Source of the DNA: Acidobacteriota bacterium
Lineage (GTDB): Bacteria; Acidobacteriota; UBA4820
Length of the DNA stretch: 36,994 bases
Assembly: GCA_029559035.1 (NCBI GenBank)
Contig: JAKQCT010000076.1
Span: 1-36,994, forward strand
Direction of reading: 5' to 3'
Shown: one piece after another, positions 4,409 to 28,048 of the stretch
How positions within the stretch are numbered: position 1 is the first letter of the stretch
How the letters are laid out: every line of letters begins with the position of its first letter
The notes under the pieces: model-generated
Databases searched by the model: none
What the model was told of the DNA's origin: nothing
What the model saw: the letters and a program-made list of their open reading frames with translations, nothing else
Program-made: the position numbers and the translations under genes

Positions 4409-5661
4409 CCCCTGATCCTCTCGATACTGGCCCCGAGCGCCGAAAGCCTCTCCTCGAAATGCTCGTAACCCCTGTCGAGGTGGTATATCCTGTTGACCTC
4501 GGTCCTTCCCTTCGCGACGAGGGCGGCGATTATGAGCGAAGCCGAGGCGCGGAGGTCGCTGGCCATGACTGGGGCTGCCTTGAGCGGCGTCATCCCGCGC
4601 ACGACGGCGAGATTCCCCTCCAGCCTGATGTCGGCCCCCAGCCTCTGAAGCTCCGGCACGTGCATGAACCTCGTCTCGAAGATTTCCTCCCTGACCGTTC
4701 CGCTCCCCTCCGCCTGGGTCAAAAGGGCCATGAACTGCGCCTGGAGGTCCGTCGGAAATCCGGGGAACGGGGCGGTCATTATGTCGGCCGATCGAAGGGC
4801 GCATGTCGACCTGACAGTGATCTGTTTTTCTCCTGCAACGATATCCGCCCCCATCTCTTTTAGCTTTAAAATATATGCTTCAAGATGATGTGGGTCGGCG
4901 TTCTTGATCACGGCCTCACCCCCGGTTATGGCTATCGCCGCGAGGATGGTTCCGCACTCGATCCTGTCCGGAATGGGGGAGTGCGTCGCTCCGTGAAGTT
5001 CGTTCACTCCTTCGACCGTGATGGTGTCGGAACCCAGTCCTTCGATCCTGGCGCCCATGGAAATGAGAAGGTTGCCGAGGTCGGCGATCTCCGGTTCCTT
5101 TGCCGCGTTGGAAATCGTCGTCGTACCTCTGGCGAGGACGGCTGCCATCAGGATGTTCTCCGTGCCGCCCACCGTCACCTTGTCGAAGAAGACCGGCGCG
5201 CCGGTCAGTTCCCTCGCCCGGGCGATGATGTATCCGTTGTCCACATCTATCTCCGCTCCGAGGGCCTGGAGGGCTTTGATGTGAAGGTCCACCGGTCTCG
5301 CTCCGATGGCGCAGCCGCCGGGGAGGGATACCTTGGCCTTGCCGAACCTCGCGAGAAGCGGGCCGAGGACCAGGACGCTCGCCCGCATCTTCCTGACGAG
5401 GTCGTACGGCGCGTCGAAGGTCCCGATCTCCGAAGCGTCGAACGAAAGGGCGCCTCCCGGCCTGCCGCCGATGGCCACGCCGAGGTGCTGGAGAAGCCGG
5501 CACATGGAATCGATGTCCATCAGGTTGCTGGTTTCCGAGAGCGTCACCTTTCCGCCGGTCAACAAAGACGCCGCCATGCAGGGCAGAAGCGCGTTCTTCG
5601 CCGGTTTTATCGATATCTCCCCTCTGAGGGGGTTTCCGCCTTCAACGATGAACTTGTCCAT
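4405..5661 (-). CDS. murA: UDP-N-acetylglucosamine 1-carboxyvinyltransferase MurA
   Basis: First committed step of peptidoglycan synthesis: transfer of enolpyruvate from PEP to UDP-GlcNAc in the cytoplasm. K22-N23 (AKN) and the active-site C117 in the LPGGCAIG loop are present, so the enzyme is of the cysteine, fosfomycin-sensitive type. A later FPTD segment supplies the conserved aspartate. Length (418 aa) is exact for the family. The frame is open to 5748, but the start at 5661 (MDKFIVEGG) carries a perfect GGAGG seven bases upstream and matches the family N-terminus. It is the first gene of a five-gene minus-strand run that ends with era. Confidence 0.97.
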   Translation of the reverse strand: MDKFIVEGGNPLRGEISIKPAKNALLPCMAASLLTGGKVTLSETSNLMDIDSMCRLLQHLGVAIGGRPGGALSFDASEIGTFDAPYDLVRKMRASVLVLGPLLARFGKAKVSLPGGCAIGARPVDLHIKALQALGAEIDVDNGYIIARARELTGAPVFFDKVTVGGTENILMAAVLARGTTTISNAAKEPEIADLGNLLISMGARIEGLGSDTITVEGVNELHGATHSPIPDRIECGTILAAIAITGGEAVIKNADPHHLEAYILKLKEMGADIVAGEKQITVRSTCALRSADIMTAPFPGFPTDLQAQFMALLTQAEGSGTVREEIFETRFMHVPELQRLGADIRLEGNLAVVRGMTPLKAAPVMASDLRASASLIIAALVAKGRTEVNRIYHLDRGYEHFEERLSALGASIERIRG

Positions 5662-5679
5662 GAAGGACCTCCAGGAGAA

Positions 5680-5706
5680 AGTATAACTCATAAATTTGCA
5701 GGGCTG
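5680..5706 (-). promoter_or_regulatory. Possible murA operon promoter
   Basis: On the minus strand a TATACT -10-like hexamer lies at 5685-5680, about 20 bases before the murA start. The -35 position carries only a poor match (TTCAGC-like). The leader would be very short, just including the GGAGG site. Weak. Confidence 0.28.
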
Positions 5707-5885
5707 AAGGCTTATGGCTGATGGCTGAAGGATTGTCGGTATGGGCACGTTGCCGCGCGCCCAGTATCTTTATCGCATATGGCTGTTCGAACGCCGACAT
5801 AATCGGTATGCCTCCGGCAATGTCCGTCGGGCGGCGTCTTTGCCCGGATAATGCCGGAAAAGGTTTTTTCTCCCGCCGTCGGCAT

Positions 5886-6074
5886 CCGTATGACGACCGT
5901 CCGAATTCGGATGGACAGCGGCGTAATTGGTATGTTGCACGGCATTGTTCGTATGGCGCGCTCCAAAGCTCGTATGACGACCGGCAGAGTCCGTATGGCG
6001 CACCCCAAAATTCATATGATAACCGGCTGAGTTCGTATGCGGAAAGGCGGCATCGGGATGAGTGGCGGCGGTTT
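5886..6074. repeat. 21-bp tandem repeat array, nine units
   Basis: Nine units start at 5886, 5907, 5928, 5949, 5970, 5991, 6012, 6033 and 6054, exactly 21 bp apart. Each begins with a heptamer close to YCGTATG (CCGTATG, TCGGATG, TGGTATG, TCGTATG, TCGTATG, CCGTATG, TCATATG, TCGTATG, CGGGATG). The other 14 bases vary but alternate in type: units 5 and 7 share ACCGGC.GAGT, and units 4 and 6 share GCGC..CCAAA. This gives a 42-bp higher-order period in the middle. There are no unique spacers, so it is not a CRISPR. Confidence 0.85.
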
Positions 6075-6207
6075 GCGGATAAACAGACCGAATGAATTAT
6101 TATCGCCGGTCGGGTACCTAATCAGTCCCGCTGATGGTTTTCAAGCGACATCATTTTGCCAGGAATGTAAATATATCGCCCGTAAACAGTTTTCACTCTT
6201 CCGATCA

Positions 6208-6236
6208 TTGACAACCCGCCCGGAAGTTGCCACAAT
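6208..6236 (+). promoter_or_regulatory. Sigma70-like promoter for the 6264 gene
   Basis: A perfect TTGACA (6208-6213) is followed after exactly 17 bases by CACAAT (6231-6236). The start codon of the large secreted protein follows 27 bases later, with a GGGGGA ribosome binding site between. Confidence 0.6.
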
Positions 6237-6263
6237 GTATATGCAAATTAAAAGGGGGAAGAG

Positions 6264-9200
6264 ATGATGAAGGCAAAAATCGGTTTTATCGGGCCGGGGC
6301 GGTTCTGTTTGCTTGTCTTGATCTCAATTATTGCTGCTTGTTCACTTATAATTGTCGCGCAAGAATCAAGCGGCGGCGCCGGACAGAAAGCTGTTTCGAT
6401 CCGTTCCGCTGTTCATTCTGAAAATCCTCCTCCGGGCCCTGAAAGACAGACTATCGCCTATCGCCAGGAGCGAAACGGTCCCCAGCCTGAGGCTACCGAT
6501 CCGGTTCTTCTTCTTGTCGACAAGACATGGGATTCGACGGCTGGGAATTGGATAGTCGATCTTTCCTGGTCGTCGGGAACAAGCCCTTATACTGTTTCAT
6601 ACAGCCCCGACACAAGCTTCCAGAGGGGCAACAAGACTCTGGCGATGAATACTTCCGCAACCGCCCTGAGCGTCGCAGCGAACTCATCCTATTCCCTTGA
6701 GTGTTACTCGGTAACAGAGGCTGAAGGCGTCAGCCCTGCCGTCCAGGGAATGGGATATGATCCCTATCCCGAAATCCCCGAGCCCACAATCGAGGCGAAC
6801 AATCTATGGTGGGGCGATACGGTCACACTCCACGGCGATTACATGGACCTTATTCCTGCGGCCAATTCGATGGCGATGTTCGCCCGGACGGAGAAGGCGT
6901 CGTCAGTGACCGACGGCGGCAACGGGTTTGCTTCATCCGTATCCTTTACCGTCCCTGATGATGGAAGGGGAACATACACCTTCGTCTCGACGGCGGGTAA
7001 ATATCCGTCTGCGTCCCCGTACCTTCGGCTTTCCCCGAGAAACATCCCGACCTATTCCAACATCAGGAACATTATCTATGCGCCTCAAACGGGGCACATA
7101 TGGGTGTCGTCCGACGGAAAAGTTGACGAGATCGATCTGTTCCAGCATGAGCCGGAAGTTGTCCGCTCGATCACAAGCTATACGAAACCTTACATATCCC
7201 ATGCGACCACGACAGGCATTATCCTCGTTGTTGACGGGGTGACAGGCGTCGGCCAGATCGACCAGATAGATGTTTTTTCCGGAGCAGTATCCCTCTTTGC
7301 CTATACGACCGATACGCTCAACACTCCCAATTTCACGAGACAGATCCTTCCAGTCGGAATAGCGGCGACGCCGGATGGCACGATGGGTTTTGTGGCCGAC
7401 GCGATAGGCGGTTCGGGAGCGTCAAAGGTTGTAAGGTTCCCCTCAAATAACGGCTCCGCAGTAACCGACAGCTGGGGCAACAGAAGCAACTGGACTTTTT
7501 ATGATCCGTGCGGGATGGATGTGGGTCTGTCGGGAAAGCTCTATATCGGTTGGGCGACGGGCAACGGATACATATACTGGATTTCAGCAACCGGTACAAG
7601 CAATTCCATGAAATATTCTTATACCGGCAACGTCGCAACAATCAATCTCGACCGGGATATTTCCAACACAACATCGGATAATTTCTGGTATTCCGAAGAA
7701 CCGTTCACCCATGCTTTCAACCAGAACCAGATAGAAGGCTTCTCGGCGAGATTCCTTGGAGCTTCTATTTACGGATTCGAAGGGAAGCTGGATGTCCAGC
7801 AGTTGTATAACTACGCCGTTGTTGGGAACGCGCCCAAGGTCGTGATATTGAACAACGCGGGTCAAAGTTACCCATATCTTAACAGTTATCAGGTGGCGGA
7901 CAGGATAGTGATGATGACCGTGAACGGATTCGGGGGCGTTCCGATCCATCTGCGGATGATAGATCCTCCCGACTTTTCACCTTACGCGCCCGTCGGTGGA
8001 TGGGACGCCACAGACCCGATCAATCGTCCGGCGGTTCCTCCCTACGAAGCCAATGACAATTCAGTGTGGGCTTCTACAGAGACGGACTACGGCCTTATGA
8101 CGTCGCAGACCGGGACCCCGGCACTGGAAATCAACGTTACTCCATCCACCTCTTATCCCTACCAGGCGACATTTTATATGAAGCTCCCGCCGAGATACTC
8201 GGGCGACAACTGGCAGGTGGAAGTTACAAGGAAGAACCTCAGCGGCAGCATTGTGGCAAACCAGGTATGCACCTATTCGGCGGTTTTCAACGGCTGGAAG
8301 AGGGTCTTCGTCGAACGGGACAAGATGTTCAGGAGGGGAGGGTTGCTGTTTGCTCATGATGAAACAGACAATGTGTATTCCTCTAATATTTCGACAGTCT
8401 ATATCTATAAAAACTCAGATGGGTCGCAGTGGGATAACTTGAACATTGGTGACAAGATTGCCTTATTTGATTCAACGACGCCTTATGAGAACTGGAACCA
8501 TGATGAATGTTATGTCGGGGATATTGATAGGTCAAGCTGTCCCGATTATGCGATAGTCTACCTGACCCTTAGCGACCTTTCCACACCTTATACAACGAAA
8601 TGCAGCTATACGGCCTCTCCTTGGGTGAATTCCACCGATAAATATCCCGACTTTTCTCTGGGTTCAAGCGCGGGGATAGGTGTCGTTTACAGCACAACCG
8701 TCATTGACGGCCAAATCGTTGATGATATATACGGCAACCAGATCAACGGTGCAGGCTCTGCTTTTTATGAAGCCGATATGCAGGAGATCGAAAAAACCTT
8801 CAACGATGCGTATGTTCAGTTTGTGGGTCTGCGAAGCGGGATGAATGTGGCCCCGTATCTGCATTTTGCAACTGAGCCTGCTTATGCCTTGCTTAATAAT
8901 TATCAAAGGATTTGGTATGGCAACAAGGATAAAACCAATTACTTACATCTGGTAGGTGCGGAAAAGTATTACGAAGGATCGGATTATGCAGGTTTTGCTC
9001 TTTTTGATCCTTCTACGAATCTTGAACAAGGATGCAGCTTCGTCTGTGTTAAACTTATAGAAACTACCAAGCCAACTTACACATCAGAATGGATTCAATA
9101 TGCGACAGTTCATGAAAAGAGCCACAATTTCTCCATTTACGGATACGATCAGAACACTTATCACTGCGAGAATGTGGCCAGAACACCGCCTGAAGATGGG

Positions 9201-9344
9201 CAGGAATGCATCATGAACGTTCCAATTGTTCTGCATATAGGATATCCGGCAAGATTCTGTGTGCCGCATTTGTTTACCGGCGGCGATTCCATTACAGGCG
9301 TACATACGAGCATTCGTAACCAGATAGATCCGCTGCCGTATTGA
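6264..9344 (+). CDS. Large exported protein with C-terminal metzincin-like zinc protease motif
   Basis: 1026-residue secreted or surface protein of no family I can name. The N-terminus has a long hydrophobic segment (about 13-32). It contains IAAC at 23-26, a possible lipobox, but hydrophobic residues continue past it, so an ordinary signal peptide is equally likely. The middle (about 250-560) is rich in short beta-type repeats (IWVSSDGKVDEID, LYIGWATGNGYIYWIS) suggesting a beta-propeller. Near the C-terminus are HEKSH (950-954) in a reprolysin-like context (VHEKSHNFS), an HC pair at 967-968 and CIMN (982-985). The last resembles the Met-turn that follows the zinc site of metzincins. E951 would be the catalytic base. 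The spacing to the third ligand is longer than the standard HExxHxxGxxH, so activity is inference. RBS GGGGGA precedes ATG 6264 (or 6267). The next gene starts 10 bp downstream. Confidence 0.7.
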   Translation: MMKAKIGFIGPGRFCLLVLISIIAACSLIIVAQESSGGAGQKAVSIRSAVHSENPPPGPERQTIAYRQERNGPQPEATDPVLLLVDKTWDSTAGNWIVDLSWSSGTSPYTVSYSPDTSFQRGNKTLAMNTSATALSVAANSSYSLECYSVTEAEGVSPAVQGMGYDPYPEIPEPTIEANNLWWGDTVTLHGDYMDLIPAANSMAMFARTEKASSVTDGGNGFASSVSFTVPDDGRGTYTFVSTAGKYPSASPYLRLSPRNIPTYSNIRNIIYAPQTGHIWVSSDGKVDEIDLFQHEPEVVRSITSYTKPYISHATTTGIILVVDGVTGVGQIDQIDVFSGAVSLFAYTTDTLNTPNFTRQILPVGIAATPDGTMGFVADAIGGSGASKVVRFPSNNGSAVTDSWGNRSNWTFYDPCGMDVGLSGKLYIGWATGNGYIYWISATGTSNSMKYSYTGNVATINLDRDISNTTSDNFWYSEEPFTHAFNQNQIEGFSARFLGASIYGFEGKLDVQQLYNYAVVGNAPKVVILNNAGQSYPYLNSYQVADRIVMMTVNGFGGVPIHLRMIDPPDFSPYAPVGGWDATDPINRPAVPPYEANDNSVWASTETDYGLMTSQTGTPALEINVTPSTSYPYQATFYMKLPPRYSGDNWQVEVTRKNLSGSIVANQVCTYSAVFNGWKRVFVERDKMFRRGGLLFAHDETDNVYSSNISTVYIYKNSDGSQWDNLNIGDKIALFDSTTPYENWNHDECYVGDIDRSSCPDYAIVYLTLSDLSTPYTTKCSYTASPWVNSTDKYPDFSLGSSAGIGVVYSTTVIDGQIVDDIYGNQINGAGSAFYEADMQEIEKTFNDAYVQFVGLRSGMNVAPYLHFATEPAYALLNNYQRIWYGNKDKTNYLHLVGAEKYYEGSDYAGFALFDPSTNLEQGCSFVCVKLIETTKPTYTSEWIQYATVHEKSHNFSIYGYDQNTYHCENVARTPPEDGQECIMNVPIVLHIGYPARFCVPHLFTGGDSITGVHTSIRNQIDPLPY

Positions 9345-9354
9345 GGAGGAGAAA

Positions 9355-10428
9355 ATGAAGAAGTATTTGTTTCTCTTGATTAATTTCTTGCTTGCAATGG
9401 TATTTTCCCAGGCTCATTCAACTCAGGAGTTATCTTTGATAATGAAAGTTCGCAATCCTGAAATATTATTCAAAGAGCCGATATCAATGGAAATCATTTT
9501 GAAGAACGAAGGCAAGATACCCCTGAAATTGCCTTTTGAGCCTGATGGGGATGTTCTCGGGCCGTGGTCGTCAAAACCGTCGGTGCTGATATGTACCGAG
9601 GACAAGAAAGATGTGTTTTGCATTCAGGATTCGAGGACTATGAGGGCAAATTTTGATTCGGTTTTGGAGGACGGCGGATATATTACCCCGCCCGGCGGCA
9701 CATTTACATTTGAAGTAAAAATGCTACTCCCAAAGCAATATGCGGACAAGGCTGGCAAAATGCAAATATACGGAAGATATGTTTCCAAAGGGAAGCATTT
9801 GGGCCAGCTTGGCGCAGCTGTTGGAAAGAACGGCGAAATAGTGGAACCGGCAAAATATCATTGTGACGGATGTTGGGAAGGATCCGTTGAAAGCGTGCCG
9901 GTTCCTTTAAATATTTCTATGCCCACAGGTGTTGACCTTGAAGCCTACGATTATTTAAAGGGTGAGCCTTTATCCAACCCAACTGTACTTCTCCAGAGAT
10001 TCCCCACCTCAACATACGCGGGATATGAGTTGTGCAAAGGCGGTCCGTCATTAAAGAGGGCGGCAGAGATAGATGACGCGAAGCGTGATATGGATTGGTT
10101 CGTTACGCCGCTTGCTTCACCGGATGAAAAAAGCAAAAGGAGAGAGATGGTGAGGCAAGGGTGGACAGAGAAAGCCGACAGGATCATTGCATTTTTAAAA
10201 ATTCATCCAGATTTTGCCAAAGCCGACCTGTTGCGAAGAAGCTTGGCTTCATACCTCTTCTACTTGGACAGACGGAGCGAAGCCATAGAACAGCTTGAAA
10301 TCCTTTCCAAGATGGAGGGGCAAAACGCCGAGGACGCAAGGGAGGTTCTTGGGTGCGTGGAAGGAAAGAAGAAGATCGATGCCGCCCCTATCGAAAAGAG
10401 TGCCCCTGAAGCAGTTGTCGTAAAGTAG
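9355..10428 (+). CDS. Exported protein of unknown function, Ig-like N-terminal region
   Basis: 357 residues, not recognised. A clear Sec signal peptide (residues 1-21, cleavage near QAHS) leads into a beta-rich region. Its text (MEIILKNEGKIPLKLPF) resembles Ig-like inhibitor or adhesion domains with a 'K-N-E-G-x-x-P' strand turn. The C-terminal third (about 235-345) is helical and Arg/Lys-rich, with an ASYLFYLDRRSEAIEQLEIL segment like a tetratricopeptide helix pair. GAGGAGG lies just before ATG 9355, and the gene follows the metzincin-like gene by 10 bp. The two are almost certainly co-transcribed and act outside the cytoplasm. Codon use is more AT-rich than in the core operons. No catalytic motif was seen. 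Confidence 0.65.
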   Translation: MKKYLFLLINFLLAMVFSQAHSTQELSLIMKVRNPEILFKEPISMEIILKNEGKIPLKLPFEPDGDVLGPWSSKPSVLICTEDKKDVFCIQDSRTMRANFDSVLEDGGYITPPGGTFTFEVKMLLPKQYADKAGKMQIYGRYVSKGKHLGQLGAAVGKNGEIVEPAKYHCDGCWEGSVESVPVPLNISMPTGVDLEAYDYLKGEPLSNPTVLLQRFPTSTYAGYELCKGGPSLKRAAEIDDAKRDMDWFVTPLASPDEKSKRREMVRQGWTEKADRIIAFLKIHPDFAKADLLRRSLASYLFYLDRRSEAIEQLEILSKMEGQNAEDAREVLGCVEGKKKIDAAPIEKSAPEAVVVK

Positions 10429-10466
10429 AGCGAACCACGTTGATGTCAGTGAAAGGAGGGTGTGTG

Positions 10467-11162
10467 ATGGAAAGGATCAAACCGAATTGGGAGTTGTCCG
10501 AAGCGATTTCATCGGCACGAAAAACCTTGAAGGCCCTCGAAAAGTACGGGAAAGAGCTTGAGCCGAGGCTTCCGGCGGGAGCGGTTGACGGCCTGAAGAC
10601 CGACCTGGCCGTGATGGCGGAATCGAAGGTCAGCCGCCCGGCCTACAGGAAGACGGCCCTCGCCAAGACAAAGAGCGAAAGGATTCTCGCTAAAGAGGGG
10701 GCGGATCTTCTTTCCCGCCTCAGGTATTCCATCAGGGTCTGCCCCGCCGCGACGCCCGAAATCCTCAAGGCCGTCGGTGTCGGCAGTCAGGTCAATCCTG
10801 GAAAGACCACTTCCGTTGCGGAAAGCCTGAAGGCGATGGTTGAAGCGTCGAAGGTTTACGTTGACACATTCAGGGCCGCCGGGATTCTGGAAAGCGACCT
10901 GAATGAAGCCCGCGACTTTATGACATCCCTGCTCGGCGCGGACGAGATCCAGCAGGAGACCCAGTACACGAAGAAGGAGCTTACGGAACTGAAGAACGCC
11001 GCACAGAAGCGCGCCGAAGAGACGATCTCCGCCGTGGCCGCCGCAGGCCAGGTGCAGTTCAGGAAACAGGCCGCCAAGCGCGCCGTCTTCGAGAAGCTTG
11101 TCCCGAAAAGCGCCAAGAAGAAGGGTAAACCTACCGCCCCGCCGAAGGAAGAGAAGAAGTAA
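10467..11162 (+). CDS. Helical Lys-rich protein of unknown function
   Basis: 231 residues. The frame is open from 10440, but the ATG at 10467 has GGAGGG seven bases upstream and is preferred. There is no signal peptide. The sequence is mainly amphipathic helices (for example SSARKTLKALEKYGKEL near the N-terminus and TKKELTELKNAAQKRAEE near 180). A short loop with AVGVGS lies in the middle, and the tail is basic and Pro/Lys-rich, ending KEEKK. It looks like a four-helix or coiled-coil, possibly nucleic-acid-binding protein. I do not recognise the family. GC content is as high as in the core genes, unlike the next genes. A strong GC hairpin follows the stop. Confidence 0.6.
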   Translation: MERIKPNWELSEAISSARKTLKALEKYGKELEPRLPAGAVDGLKTDLAVMAESKVSRPAYRKTALAKTKSERILAKEGADLLSRLRYSIRVCPAATPEILKAVGVGSQVNPGKTTSVAESLKAMVEASKVYVDTFRAAGILESDLNEARDFMTSLLGADEIQQETQYTKKELTELKNAAQKRAEETISAVAAAGQVQFRKQAAKRAVFEKLVPKSAKKKGKPTAPPKEEKK

Positions 11163-11177
11163 AGAAGATGAAAGAAG

Positions 11178-11213
11178 CCCCCCGCCTTCAAGTGAAACTG
11201 AGGAGGCGGGGGG
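11178..11213 (+). terminator. GC hairpin after the 10467 gene
   Basis: CCCCCCGCCT (11178-11187) pairs perfectly with AGGCGGGGGG (11204-11213) around a 16-base loop, 15 bases after the stop. No U-run follows, so it may stabilise the mRNA end or work with Rho rather than act as a classic intrinsic terminator. A sister hairpin lies at 11690-11714. Confidence 0.6.
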
Positions 11214-14158: not shown

Positions 14159-15766
14159 CTAAAACCCCTTCAACACTTCCTGTTTCGCTTTCTTTCCTTC
14201 TTTCTTGGCCTTCTTGAAGTTGTAGGTGCCGGAGGAGATGTCGGGGTGTTCGGGGCGCTTCTTGCCGGAAAGAAGGTCTTCGATGGTGAGGATCTGTATC
14301 TTGGCGAATTCACCCTTTACCGATTCGTAGAAGCCTGCGGTGACGGATTCCTTGACCATTGGGTCGGTGGGGTCTGTCAGGGTGACGAATATTCCCATTG
14401 CGGCTTTCTCCCTTTCGACCGTGCCTTTCAAATCTCGGATTTGGTTGACACCAATATGTTCGCCGCCCTTGACGGAAACGATGATCTTCTTTGCCCCCTG
14501 TTCGTCGTCCTGGAAGAACTTGATGCCGTCAATGCCGCCGTCCGCGCCTTTCTTCTTTCCTTGATAGGGCTGTGCGCCGACGAGTGAACAGGCCCACCAC
14601 TGGAACTGGTACTTGTCACGCTCGGCGAGGTTCCTGGCTCCCTCCAAATCCTTCGGCGTTCCGTGGACATCGAAGGCGATTCCGGGGAAGGCGTCCTTCA
14701 TTCTCTTTTCAATGAGGCTTATCGAAAGATGGGTGATGTCAATACCGATCCAATCCCGCCCAAGCTTCTGAGCCGCGTGGACCGCCGTTCCGCACCCGCA
14801 GAAGGGATCGAGGACAATATCGCCCTTGTTCGAACTGGCTTCAATGATCCGCTCAAGCAAGGCTAGAGGCTTTTGAGTGGGGTAGCCGAGCTTCTCAACA
14901 GACTGTCCTGAGAGCGGAGGAATGTCAATGATAACTGAGTTTATTGGGTTTCCTTCTTGTTCATGTAAATACCTCTTAAGATATGGCCTGCCAGTCTTAC
15001 TCCATACTATTCGCCCATCATTATCAAGTTTTTCCACCTTTTCTCTGATTAGCCGCCAACCCCATTCTGGCTTGTATCCTTTATATTCATAGCTCAGATT
15101 TGGCCTTGCACCCATTGATGCTGTCCTGATAATTTCATGAAGACGATATGTTCCTTTTTCATCTTCAAAGCGATAAAAATTCTTGACATAGTTTTCGTCA
15201 TGGGCTGTGTAAACCGGGTTCCAAGTAAAAGAGTCGCCCTTTTTATAAAAGAAGATCACATCATGAATACTGGCCCATTTTTTTGAATCATTGTGGCTGC
15301 TAGTTCTTTGCCAGATGATTTCATTTACATAATCCTCTGGCCCAAACACCGCATCCATCACCACCTTCAAATAATGGCTTGCTGTCGGATCGCAGTGGAG
15401 GTATAGGCTTCCGGTGGGCTTGAGGACGCGGTGGAGTTCGAGCAATCGGTTGGCCATCATGACGAGGTAGGCCATCATGTCGCTTTCCTTGAGGAAGCGG
15501 CGCAGGGACTGGATCATTTCGGCAACGTCGGTGTTGGGATGTTTGAGAAGTTCGCTGAACTCCCTTTCGGCCTGCTCTCCCCAGTGCCAGGAATCCTCGA
15601 AGGCGGTTATCTGTGCGTCCGATTCGTGCCCCTTCGGCGTCTTGAGGAAAACGTTGTAATCGCGCTTGCTGTTGAACGGCGGGTCGAGATAGATAAGGTC
15701 AATCGCCTCGTCCTTTATCTCTTCCCTAAGAACATGCAGATTATCCCCGAAATATAAAGCACCCAT
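14159..15766 (-). CDS. DNA methyltransferase fused to an Mrr-like restriction nuclease domain
   Basis: 535-residue enzyme. Residues 1-360 form a beta-class amino-methyltransferase. Catalytic DPPF (28-31) comes first, then a variable target-recognition region (about 145-280), then the AdoMet-binding DPFCGCG (320-326). DPPF points to N6-adenine. Residues about 385-500 look like a PD-(D/E)xK domain of the Mrr type: GADGGIDG (407-414, metal ligand D413), then IIVSVKGG (428-435, K433), then GVNQIRDLKG and GIFVTLT. The usual E or Q before xK is S431 here, so cleavage competence is uncertain. A Lys-rich tail closes the protein. Modification and restriction in one chain would make a self-contained R-M enzyme. 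The start at 15766 (MGALYFGDNL) has only a weak GGGAAACTGG site. Two small paralogues follow on the same strand. Confidence 0.85.
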   Translation of the reverse strand: MGALYFGDNLHVLREEIKDEAIDLIYLDPPFNSKRDYNVFLKTPKGHESDAQITAFEDSWHWGEQAEREFSELLKHPNTDVAEMIQSLRRFLKESDMMAYLVMMANRLLELHRVLKPTGSLYLHCDPTASHYLKVVMDAVFGPEDYVNEIIWQRTSSHNDSKKWASIHDVIFFYKKGDSFTWNPVYTAHDENYVKNFYRFEDEKGTYRLHEIIRTASMGARPNLSYEYKGYKPEWGWRLIREKVEKLDNDGRIVWSKTGRPYLKRYLHEQEGNPINSVIIDIPPLSGQSVEKLGYPTQKPLALLERIIEASSNKGDIVLDPFCGCGTAVHAAQKLGRDWIGIDITHLSISLIEKRMKDAFPGIAFDVHGTPKDLEGARNLAERDKYQFQWWACSLVGAQPYQGKKKGADGGIDGIKFFQDDEQGAKKIIVSVKGGEHIGVNQIRDLKGTVEREKAAMGIFVTLTDPTDPMVKESVTAGFYESVKGEFAKIQILTIEDLLSGKKRPEHPDISSGTYNFKKAKKEGKKAKQEVLKGF

Positions 15767-16945: not shown

Positions 16946-17207
16946 AAATGGATTGCCGAAACCCTAGAGCTGAAGGCGAAAGTCTTACACAAGCTGGGAA
17001 GCAAGATAAAAGTCAGAAGTGAGAAGGCAGAAGACAGAAGTTTTATAAGGAAATAGATTCCACAATTTTAAATTTTGCACTTTTCAATTTTCAATTTAAA
17101 ATTCGCCGAAGGCGCTACATGAGAAGAGTCAATCCTTCCACAAATTTAAAATTTGCACTTTTCAATTTTCAATTTAAAATTCGCCGAAGGCGCACCCCCC
17201 TAACCCC
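16946..17207. other. Spacer before the rimP promoter, dominated by AT-rich filler
   Basis: No gene was seen. The left part has purine-rich simple sequence (GAAGGCAGAAGACAGAAG). The right part is a 56-bp direct duplication of the AT-rich filler ending in TCGCCGAAGGCGC. Confidence 0.6.
17060..17193. repeat. 56-bp direct duplication of AT-rich filler
   Basis: Copies at 17060-17115 and 17138-17193 (offset 78 bp) are identical apart from a few bases. Each runs CCACAA, AT-rich words, TTGCACTTTTCAATTTTC, then AAAATTCGCCGAAGGCGC. The TCGCCGAAGGCG end forms a small GCC-GAA-GGC hairpin. Confidence 0.8.
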
Positions 17208-21837: not shown

Positions 21838-21859
21838 AAAAAGGCCTGAAAGCCTTTTT
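21838..21859 (+). terminator. Intrinsic terminator after infB
   Basis: AAAAAGGC (21838-21845), loop CTGAAA, GCCTTTTT (21852-21859), two bases after the infB stop. The A-run upstream and U-run downstream make it potentially bidirectional. It would partly separate infB from ylxP-rbfA-truB. Confidence 0.75.
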
Positions 21860-22036
21860 GAATTTAAAGTTGGAAATTGTAAATTGAAAATTTTAAATTT
21901 GAGGAGAAAAATTTCCCTGAATTTAAAATTTCAAGCGGGCGATTTGAAATTGGAGGTTGAAAAGTGAAAAATGAAAAATCAGGGAAAAACAATTCCTCAA
22001 TTTTAAATTTTTCAATTTTCAATCTTATATTTTCAA
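21860..22036. repeat. AT-rich dispersed intergenic repeat
   Basis: Successive words of the AATTTAAA, TTGAAAATT and TTTTCAATTTTC type, the same family as at 1066-1157, 17060-17193 and 25882-25917. No gene is visible between infB and ylxP. In this copy the words change orientation halfway, so the transcript could fold back on itself. Confidence 0.6.
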
Positions 22037-22038
22037 TT

Positions 22039-25881: not shown

Positions 25882-25917
25882 AATTGAAAATTTAAGATTG
25901 AAAATTGAAAAAATTAA
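25882..25917. repeat. AT-rich dispersed intergenic repeat
   Basis: Another copy of the TTGAAAATT word family, here between two hairpins downstream of mglA. Confidence 0.5.
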
Positions 25918-25928
25918 AAGTGATGTAG

Positions 25929-27767: not shown

Positions 27768-27787
27768 CTCTGGTCCTCCCTACCGGC

Positions 27788-27933
27788 CTTCCCGGCTTAA
27801 GTTTACCCTTCTCTATTAAAGGGTTCCAGAAATGTGCGAAAAATAGTGTACGTTATCCCGGGCTTCCCGGCTTAAGTTTACCCTTCTCTATTAAAGGGTT
27901 CCAGAAATGTGCGAAAAATAGTGTACGTTATCC
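27788..27933. repeat. 75-bp tandem duplication of the IS right end
   Basis: The stretch from CTTCCCGGCTTAAG through AAAAATAGTGTACGTTATC occurs at 27788-27858 and again at 27863-27933, 75 bp apart and identical as far as I can read. Each copy contains the GTGCGAAAAATA terminal motif. The outer copy abuts the target duplication and is the one used at insertion. Confidence 0.88.
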
Positions 27934-28048
27934 CTGTTTTCAACCAGCCTGTAAATTAAGCGATGTTGAGAGATGACTTAGTGCTTGGCAAATCAGTATG
28001 TGTCCCCCGAAATCACCCGAGGGCGGGGGAAAGGTAGTTAATCACCAA

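Follow-up and report, generated by a model that had tools for sequence, protein, structure and literature searches.

Upstream of a three-gene operon for a secreted protein, an Acidobacteriota genome carries a tandem array of nine 21-bp units with one heptamer (YCGTATG) in each, and copies of this array precede paralogous operons at two further loci of the same genome. The window analyzed is a stretch of 36,994 nucleotides belonging to a genome of 2.86 Mb in 99 contigs, and the other two array loci lie on contigs C87 and C74 (Table 1). With about even confidence, we read the array as an upstream operator for a putative regulator that would bind direct repeats, confined to this subfamily of operons. 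This reading draws on the array itself, its three copies, the constraint on the heptamer, the kept phase, the common promoter, and the lack of a coding signal or an unusual RNA fold.

Organization of the Array

Phasing from position 5886 gives nine units at exact 21-bp steps up to 6074, as an earlier sequence-only reading had described. The heptamer is exact in five units (5886, 5949, 5970, 5991, and 6033), has one mismatch in three (5907, 5928, and 6012), and two mismatches in one (6054); the conservation claimed for it is real but looser than the heading of that reading implied. As a lone word on both strands of the window, YCGTATG occurs 9 times against 4.6 expected, with at least 9 occurrences in 5 of 100 shuffles. 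The periodic arrangement, rather than the frequency of the lone word, is the unusual feature. The heptamer-like copy at 5804, CGGTATG, stands off the 21-bp phase and reads CCGTATG in both C87 and C74.

A 42-bp super-period is also borne out. TRF reports a 42-bp-period array at 5950–6039 (score 117), and in the best 150-bp stretch lags 42 and 21 give self-identities of 0.61 and 0.58, both well above the best of 20 shuffles over lags 10–60 (0.41). The alternation of A and B units is seen, mostly owing to the even units. In the window, the spacers of units 2, 4, 6, and 8 differ from one another at a mean of 5.5 of 14 positions, whereas odd-even pairs average 7.8 and odd-odd pairs 8.0; the same comparison in C87 gives 4.8, 7.8, and 8.5.

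Table 1. Coordinates of the array, operon, and associated features in the window.
Feature	Position	Strand	Remark
Block 5′ of the array, common to three loci	5771–5871	+	Includes the off-phase heptamer-like copy at 5804
Array of nine 21-bp units, one heptamer YCGTATG per unit	5886–6074	+	Heptamer starts: 5886, 5907, 5928, 5949, 5970, 5991, 6012, 6033, 6054
Tract of 45 bp identical in window and C87	5946–5990	+	Permutation P 0.0008 (20,000 substitution shuffles)
Two copies of the 42-bp A+B pair (units A1 B1 A2 B2)	5956–6039	+	
Sigma-70-like promoter TTGACA-17-CACAAT	6208–6236	+	Common to five paralogs
Ribosome-binding site GGGGGAAG	6254–6261	+	Read by eye
Operon gene 1, 1026-aa protein	6264–9344	+	N-terminal signal-like stretch (by eye)
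Operon gene 2, 357 aa	9355–10428	+	27% identical to the C87 gene in the corresponding place
Operon gene 3, 240 aa	10440–11162	+	95% identical to the C87 gene in the corresponding place

Other repeats also occur in the window. Many tandem stretches have a 7-bp period (237–267, 1065–1162, 5702–5731, 17010–17181, 21856–22038, and 25882–25919), and the GGCTGAA-type 7-bp repeat has 47 further matches in this genome among the 50 matches listed. Heptameric repeats are known to be over-represented in many bacteria (PMC4692102). A 75-bp unit is tandemly duplicated at 27783–27934 with a 98% match, and a minus-strand gene at 14159–15766 joins a DNA methylase (N6_N4_Mtase) to an Mrr_cat-like nuclease domain.

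Copies at Paralogous Operons

Within its own genome the array is not a one-off. It recurs at C87 (78953–79126, minus strand), with nine units, and at C74 (25730–25847 onward, plus strand), with seven, and all three arrays lie upstream of paralogs of the 1026-aa gene. BLAST homology to the window starts at 5743 for C87 and 5727 for C74, and the three-way alignment is continuous from about 5771 to the start codon. In the window, the array sits where it had been placed, between murA (minus strand, start near 5661) and the secreted-protein gene (plus strand, 6264). The upstream neighbors of the three copies are two divergent genes, murA and a Memo-like gene, and a release-factor gene that runs in the same direction. 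Since these neighbors differ, the array goes with the secreted-protein operon, and a tie to murA finds no support.

The C74 array is shorter by exactly one 42-bp A+B pair, and this absence of two whole units is the sole indel of the three-way alignment over 5771–6208. Because the remaining B unit of C74 is one base off the second B of C87 and two off the first, loss of one pair by deletion would be the simplest reading.

A search of the genome for tandem pairs of units with at most one mismatch returns 18 matches against 4 in the control; 13 of the 18 fall inside the three arrays, and the other five are on C50, C3, C14, C28, and C91. Single unit-like sites with at most two mismatches number 50 genome-wide, equal to the 50 of the reversed control, with the six perfect matches and five of the nine one-mismatch matches falling in the arrays. 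Single units are not in excess, and therefore no wider regulon is visible.

The proposed search of the genome and its relatives yielded the three loci at home and none in the relatives searched. A three-unit pattern with at most one mismatch matches 1 of 396 genomes of the phylum, namely the array's own (eight matches); the reversed control gives five matches, all in one other genome. Among 13 genomes of the class, a search with the 493-bp region recovers the three known copies and nothing in the 12 other genomes; phage records gave no match. Periodicity was also surveyed 5′ of nine more distant homologs, seven in relatives and two in this genome, fragments lacking a 5′ end and C56 being left out. 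Seven of the nine are within the range of shuffles, and two are slightly above it: G003 (0.413 at lag 42 versus 0.407) and C48 (0.447 at lag 30 versus 0.407). The G003 value is reached by 2 of 500 shuffles, and its upstream region holds no heptamer even at one mismatch; the upstream sequence present in G003, G005, and G002 is limited to 223, 497, and 467 bases, respectively, G002 and G003 being of the same family as this genome.

Several of these features would also fit an old minisatellite, the main rival explanation, in which slippage multiplied a 21-bp unit and, on one occasion, a 42-bp pair; duplication of the operon came later, and the copies have since drifted without function. Copy number in C74 differs by a whole pair, the outer units are degenerate, and the array is missing from the relatives searched and from the paralogs on C57 and C48. 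What bears against such an origin is the pattern of change within the units.

Constraint on the Heptamer

Heptamer columns change less between loci than spacer columns do. Between the window and C87, 7 of 70 heptamer and 38 of 140 spacer columns are changed over ten units (p = 0.004), or 6 of 63 and 30 of 126 over nine; between the window and C74 the counts are 6 of 56 and 32 of 112 (p = 0.011), and between C87 and C74 the contrast (1 of 56 versus 12 of 112) stays below significance (p = 0.06), all of these being comparisons among three paralogs of one genome that are not independent and may have undergone conversion, with a heptamer whose choice for constancy across units favors it in the test. 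The core is thus more constrained than the spacers, significantly so in two of the three paralog pairs. The possibility that the heptamer is no better conserved than the rest of the unit is refuted inside this genome, and the neutral expectation of equal divergence in core and spacer does not hold for the window and C87, under the same paralog caveats. Among the 21 cyclic placements of seven columns, the heptamer has the fewest window-C87 changes (7; the next have 9 and 11). When the 45-bp identical tract is removed, the contrast persists (7 of 56 versus 38 of 109, p = 0.003).

Fourfold-degenerate sites in the first 500 codons of gene 1 provide a further standard, with 83 of 241 changed between the window and C87, 78 of 241 between the window and C74, and 54 of 247 between C87 and C74. 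For the window and C87, the heptamer differs from these sites (p = 4e-5) and the spacer does not (p = 0.17). That spacers diverge about as fast as fourfold sites is in keeping with a drifting minisatellite, but the heptamer columns change less than the spacers and far less than the fourfold sites. The 45-bp tract (P 0.0008) also counts against it, as does the absence of any indel among the 101 window-C87 substitutions over 5771–6208, by which the 21-bp phase is kept. On balance, we regard functionless drift of an old minisatellite as possible but doubtful.

The 45-bp tract is the longest that the window and C87 share without change, and it contains heptamers 4 and 5 plus the spacer after each. 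The next longest is 6218–6236 in the promoter region, and the top six include 6204–6215 and 6252–6263, covering the promoter and start region. Window-C87 substitutions within the array (5872–6074) are mostly transitions (32 of 44), compared with 11 of 22 and 19 of 35 in the flanks.

The same alignment bears on whether the array could encode a seven-residue repeat within a longer coding sequence, which is extremely unlikely. The unit length is a multiple of three, and the window has an open frame at 5721–6095 whose translation is a heptapeptide repeat. On the minus strand, two frames stay open over the whole 438-bp stretch of C87, and frame -0 meets no stop in C74 and one in the window. However, window-C87 substitutions over 5771–6208 are spread evenly over codon positions (34/31/36), the plus frame carries stops in both C87 and C74, and the 124-aa product has no Pfam match; a coding repeat was rejected on the codon-position counts and the stops in the paralogs. 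A structured RNA or transcribed repeat, toward which the conserved block upstream of the array might point, is very unlikely. Folding energies are not below those of shuffles (z 0.13 and 1.72), and Rfam yields a single match up to E = 1, an Xist exon that stays below threshold. An RNA element was rejected because the fold is no stronger than shuffles and no Rfam family reaches threshold.

Promoter

The promoter starts 133 bp downstream of the array and is the only sigma-70-like match in 5650–6300, where shuffles average 0.7 matches; taken alone, it means little. C87 and C74 have these hexamers at identical spacing, and in the more distant paralogs on C57 and C48 both hexamers and spacing are kept with unrelated spacer sequences, these five paralogs being the ones whose 5′ ends were read. 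C57 and C48 carry the promoter without the array, which is therefore an extra element of one subfamily and not the promoter itself. A search of seven relatives for the strict promoter pattern gave only TTGACA-18-TAGAAT, in G003.

In C57 (L095, about 1370–1440) and C48 (L094, about 5865–5915), the -35 hexamer is directly preceded by a G+C-rich hairpin and a run of T's. The CCCGCCCCGAAGCGAAAGC hairpin lies directly 5′ of the -35 in the array-less homologs C57, C48, and G003 (L062), and in C57 and C48 it looks like an intrinsic terminator.

Mosaic Structure of the Operons

The gene 1 product carries an HExxH motif at residues 950–954, with residues 950, 951, and 954 invariant in seven homologs, and its predicted structure has a mean pLDDT of 46. 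Nucleotide identity between the window and C87 is 85.5% over 5743–8352, breaks off, and returns at 88.3% over 10383–11213, with a short homology island at 8735–8862 within the diverged part. Amino acid differences in gene 1 run at 3–20% per 100 columns and rise to 39–72% past column 700. Judged from these alignments, the operons are mosaics of a constant 5′ part, a diverged middle, and a near-identical third gene. The diverged middle (8353–10382) comprises the HExxH-bearing C-terminal part of gene 1 together with gene 2, which could possibly form a pair of enzyme and partner. The diverged parts of C87 have their counterpart in C62, which may carry the missing portion of the C74 gene, because C62 and C74 both break off within the gene.

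This mosaic also suggests how the array could be kept alike by conversion instead of selection, lying as it does near the left edge of a constant 5′ part exchanged by recombination between copies. The break and return of C87 homology fit such an exchange, as do a third gene that is near-identical beside a second that is not and C87-C74 upstream regions that differ by 5–7% when fourfold sites differ by 22%. Between these two loci, not only the heptamers but the spacers too change less than fourfold sites, as conversion or recent sharing would give. Conversion leaves unexplained, however, why heptamer columns and promoter hexamers change less than their neighbors, and we consider it unlikely. 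A further reading, tentative and rather improbable, would make the array, the promoter, and the N-terminal part of gene 1 a constant 5′ arm within a system that diversifies secreted proteins, with the diverged middle and the near-identical third gene as its other parts; the shared operator would coordinate or select the variant expressed.

The Array as a Candidate Operator

A repeated core at helical spacing with a promoter downstream is what an operator array would present, and the preferred reading is that of a UAS-like upstream operator of the three-gene operon. Each unit would offer one TCGTATG heptamer on the same helix face as its neighbors, at a distance of two turns. A regulator that recognizes direct repeats would line up on the array in several copies, most tightly at 5946–5997, and once bound would influence the TTGACA-N17-CACAAT promoter through looping or contact with RNA polymerase. 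Binding by a protein, its cooperativity, its sign (activation or repression), and the nature of the regulator are inferred. The suggestion of protein binding made at the outset is favored by the least-changed heptamer and the kept phase, and is weakened by the lack of an array in the relatives searched.

Comparison With Known Systems

Direct repeats about 21 bp apart are familiar from the two direct half-sites of AraC and from plasmid iterons, which have a conserved core and lie at plasmid origins beside a Rep gene. The array resembles both in its spacing and the iterons also in its core. No Rep match was found among the scanned genes by the arrays (murA, release factor, Memo-like, and operon genes), part of the genes having been scanned.

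The ptx promoter of Bordetella offers another likeness. It has weak heptad-based BvgA~P sites on a single face of the DNA, with dimer centers spaced by 22 bp (two helical turns), and imperfect 21-bp direct repeats had been noted there earlier (PMC7250471). Heptads at two-turn spacing upstream of a promoter are thus common to both, but BvgA dimers use inverted heptads, whereas the heptamers here are direct repeats that stop 133 bp short of the -35. All heptamers of the window, C87, and C74 point in the same direction, with no BvgA-like inverted half-sites among them. The same paper calls the earlier by-eye heptads and 21-bp repeats at ptx a misinterpretation and not real sites (PMC7250471), a history that serves as a caution for the present array.

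Sites of LytTR regulators are 9-bp direct repeats mostly separated by 12 bp, giving 21-bp spacing, and occur as ACCxCTTAT-like pairs mostly about 10 bp from the -35 (PMC6193735). The array shares this spacing but differs in its nine units and in a genome where no LytTR domain was found: PF04397 has no match in this genome (95% complete), and as a control the profile matches in 5 of 14 known genomes. A LytTR-regulated promoter was rejected on this ground. BldC forms head-to-tail multimers that bind cooperatively to direct repeats of varying number, but its sites are 9 bp long, set end to end, with the consensus AATTXXXX(C) (PMC5859096).

Implications

If the operator reading is wrong, the array would be a clear example of a tandem array near a promoter that merely looks regulatory. 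If it is right, the nine-site array would be ready bait for a direct-repeat-binding regulator in a poorly studied lineage of Acidobacteriota, and that regulator would be tied to a family of mosaic secreted proteins.
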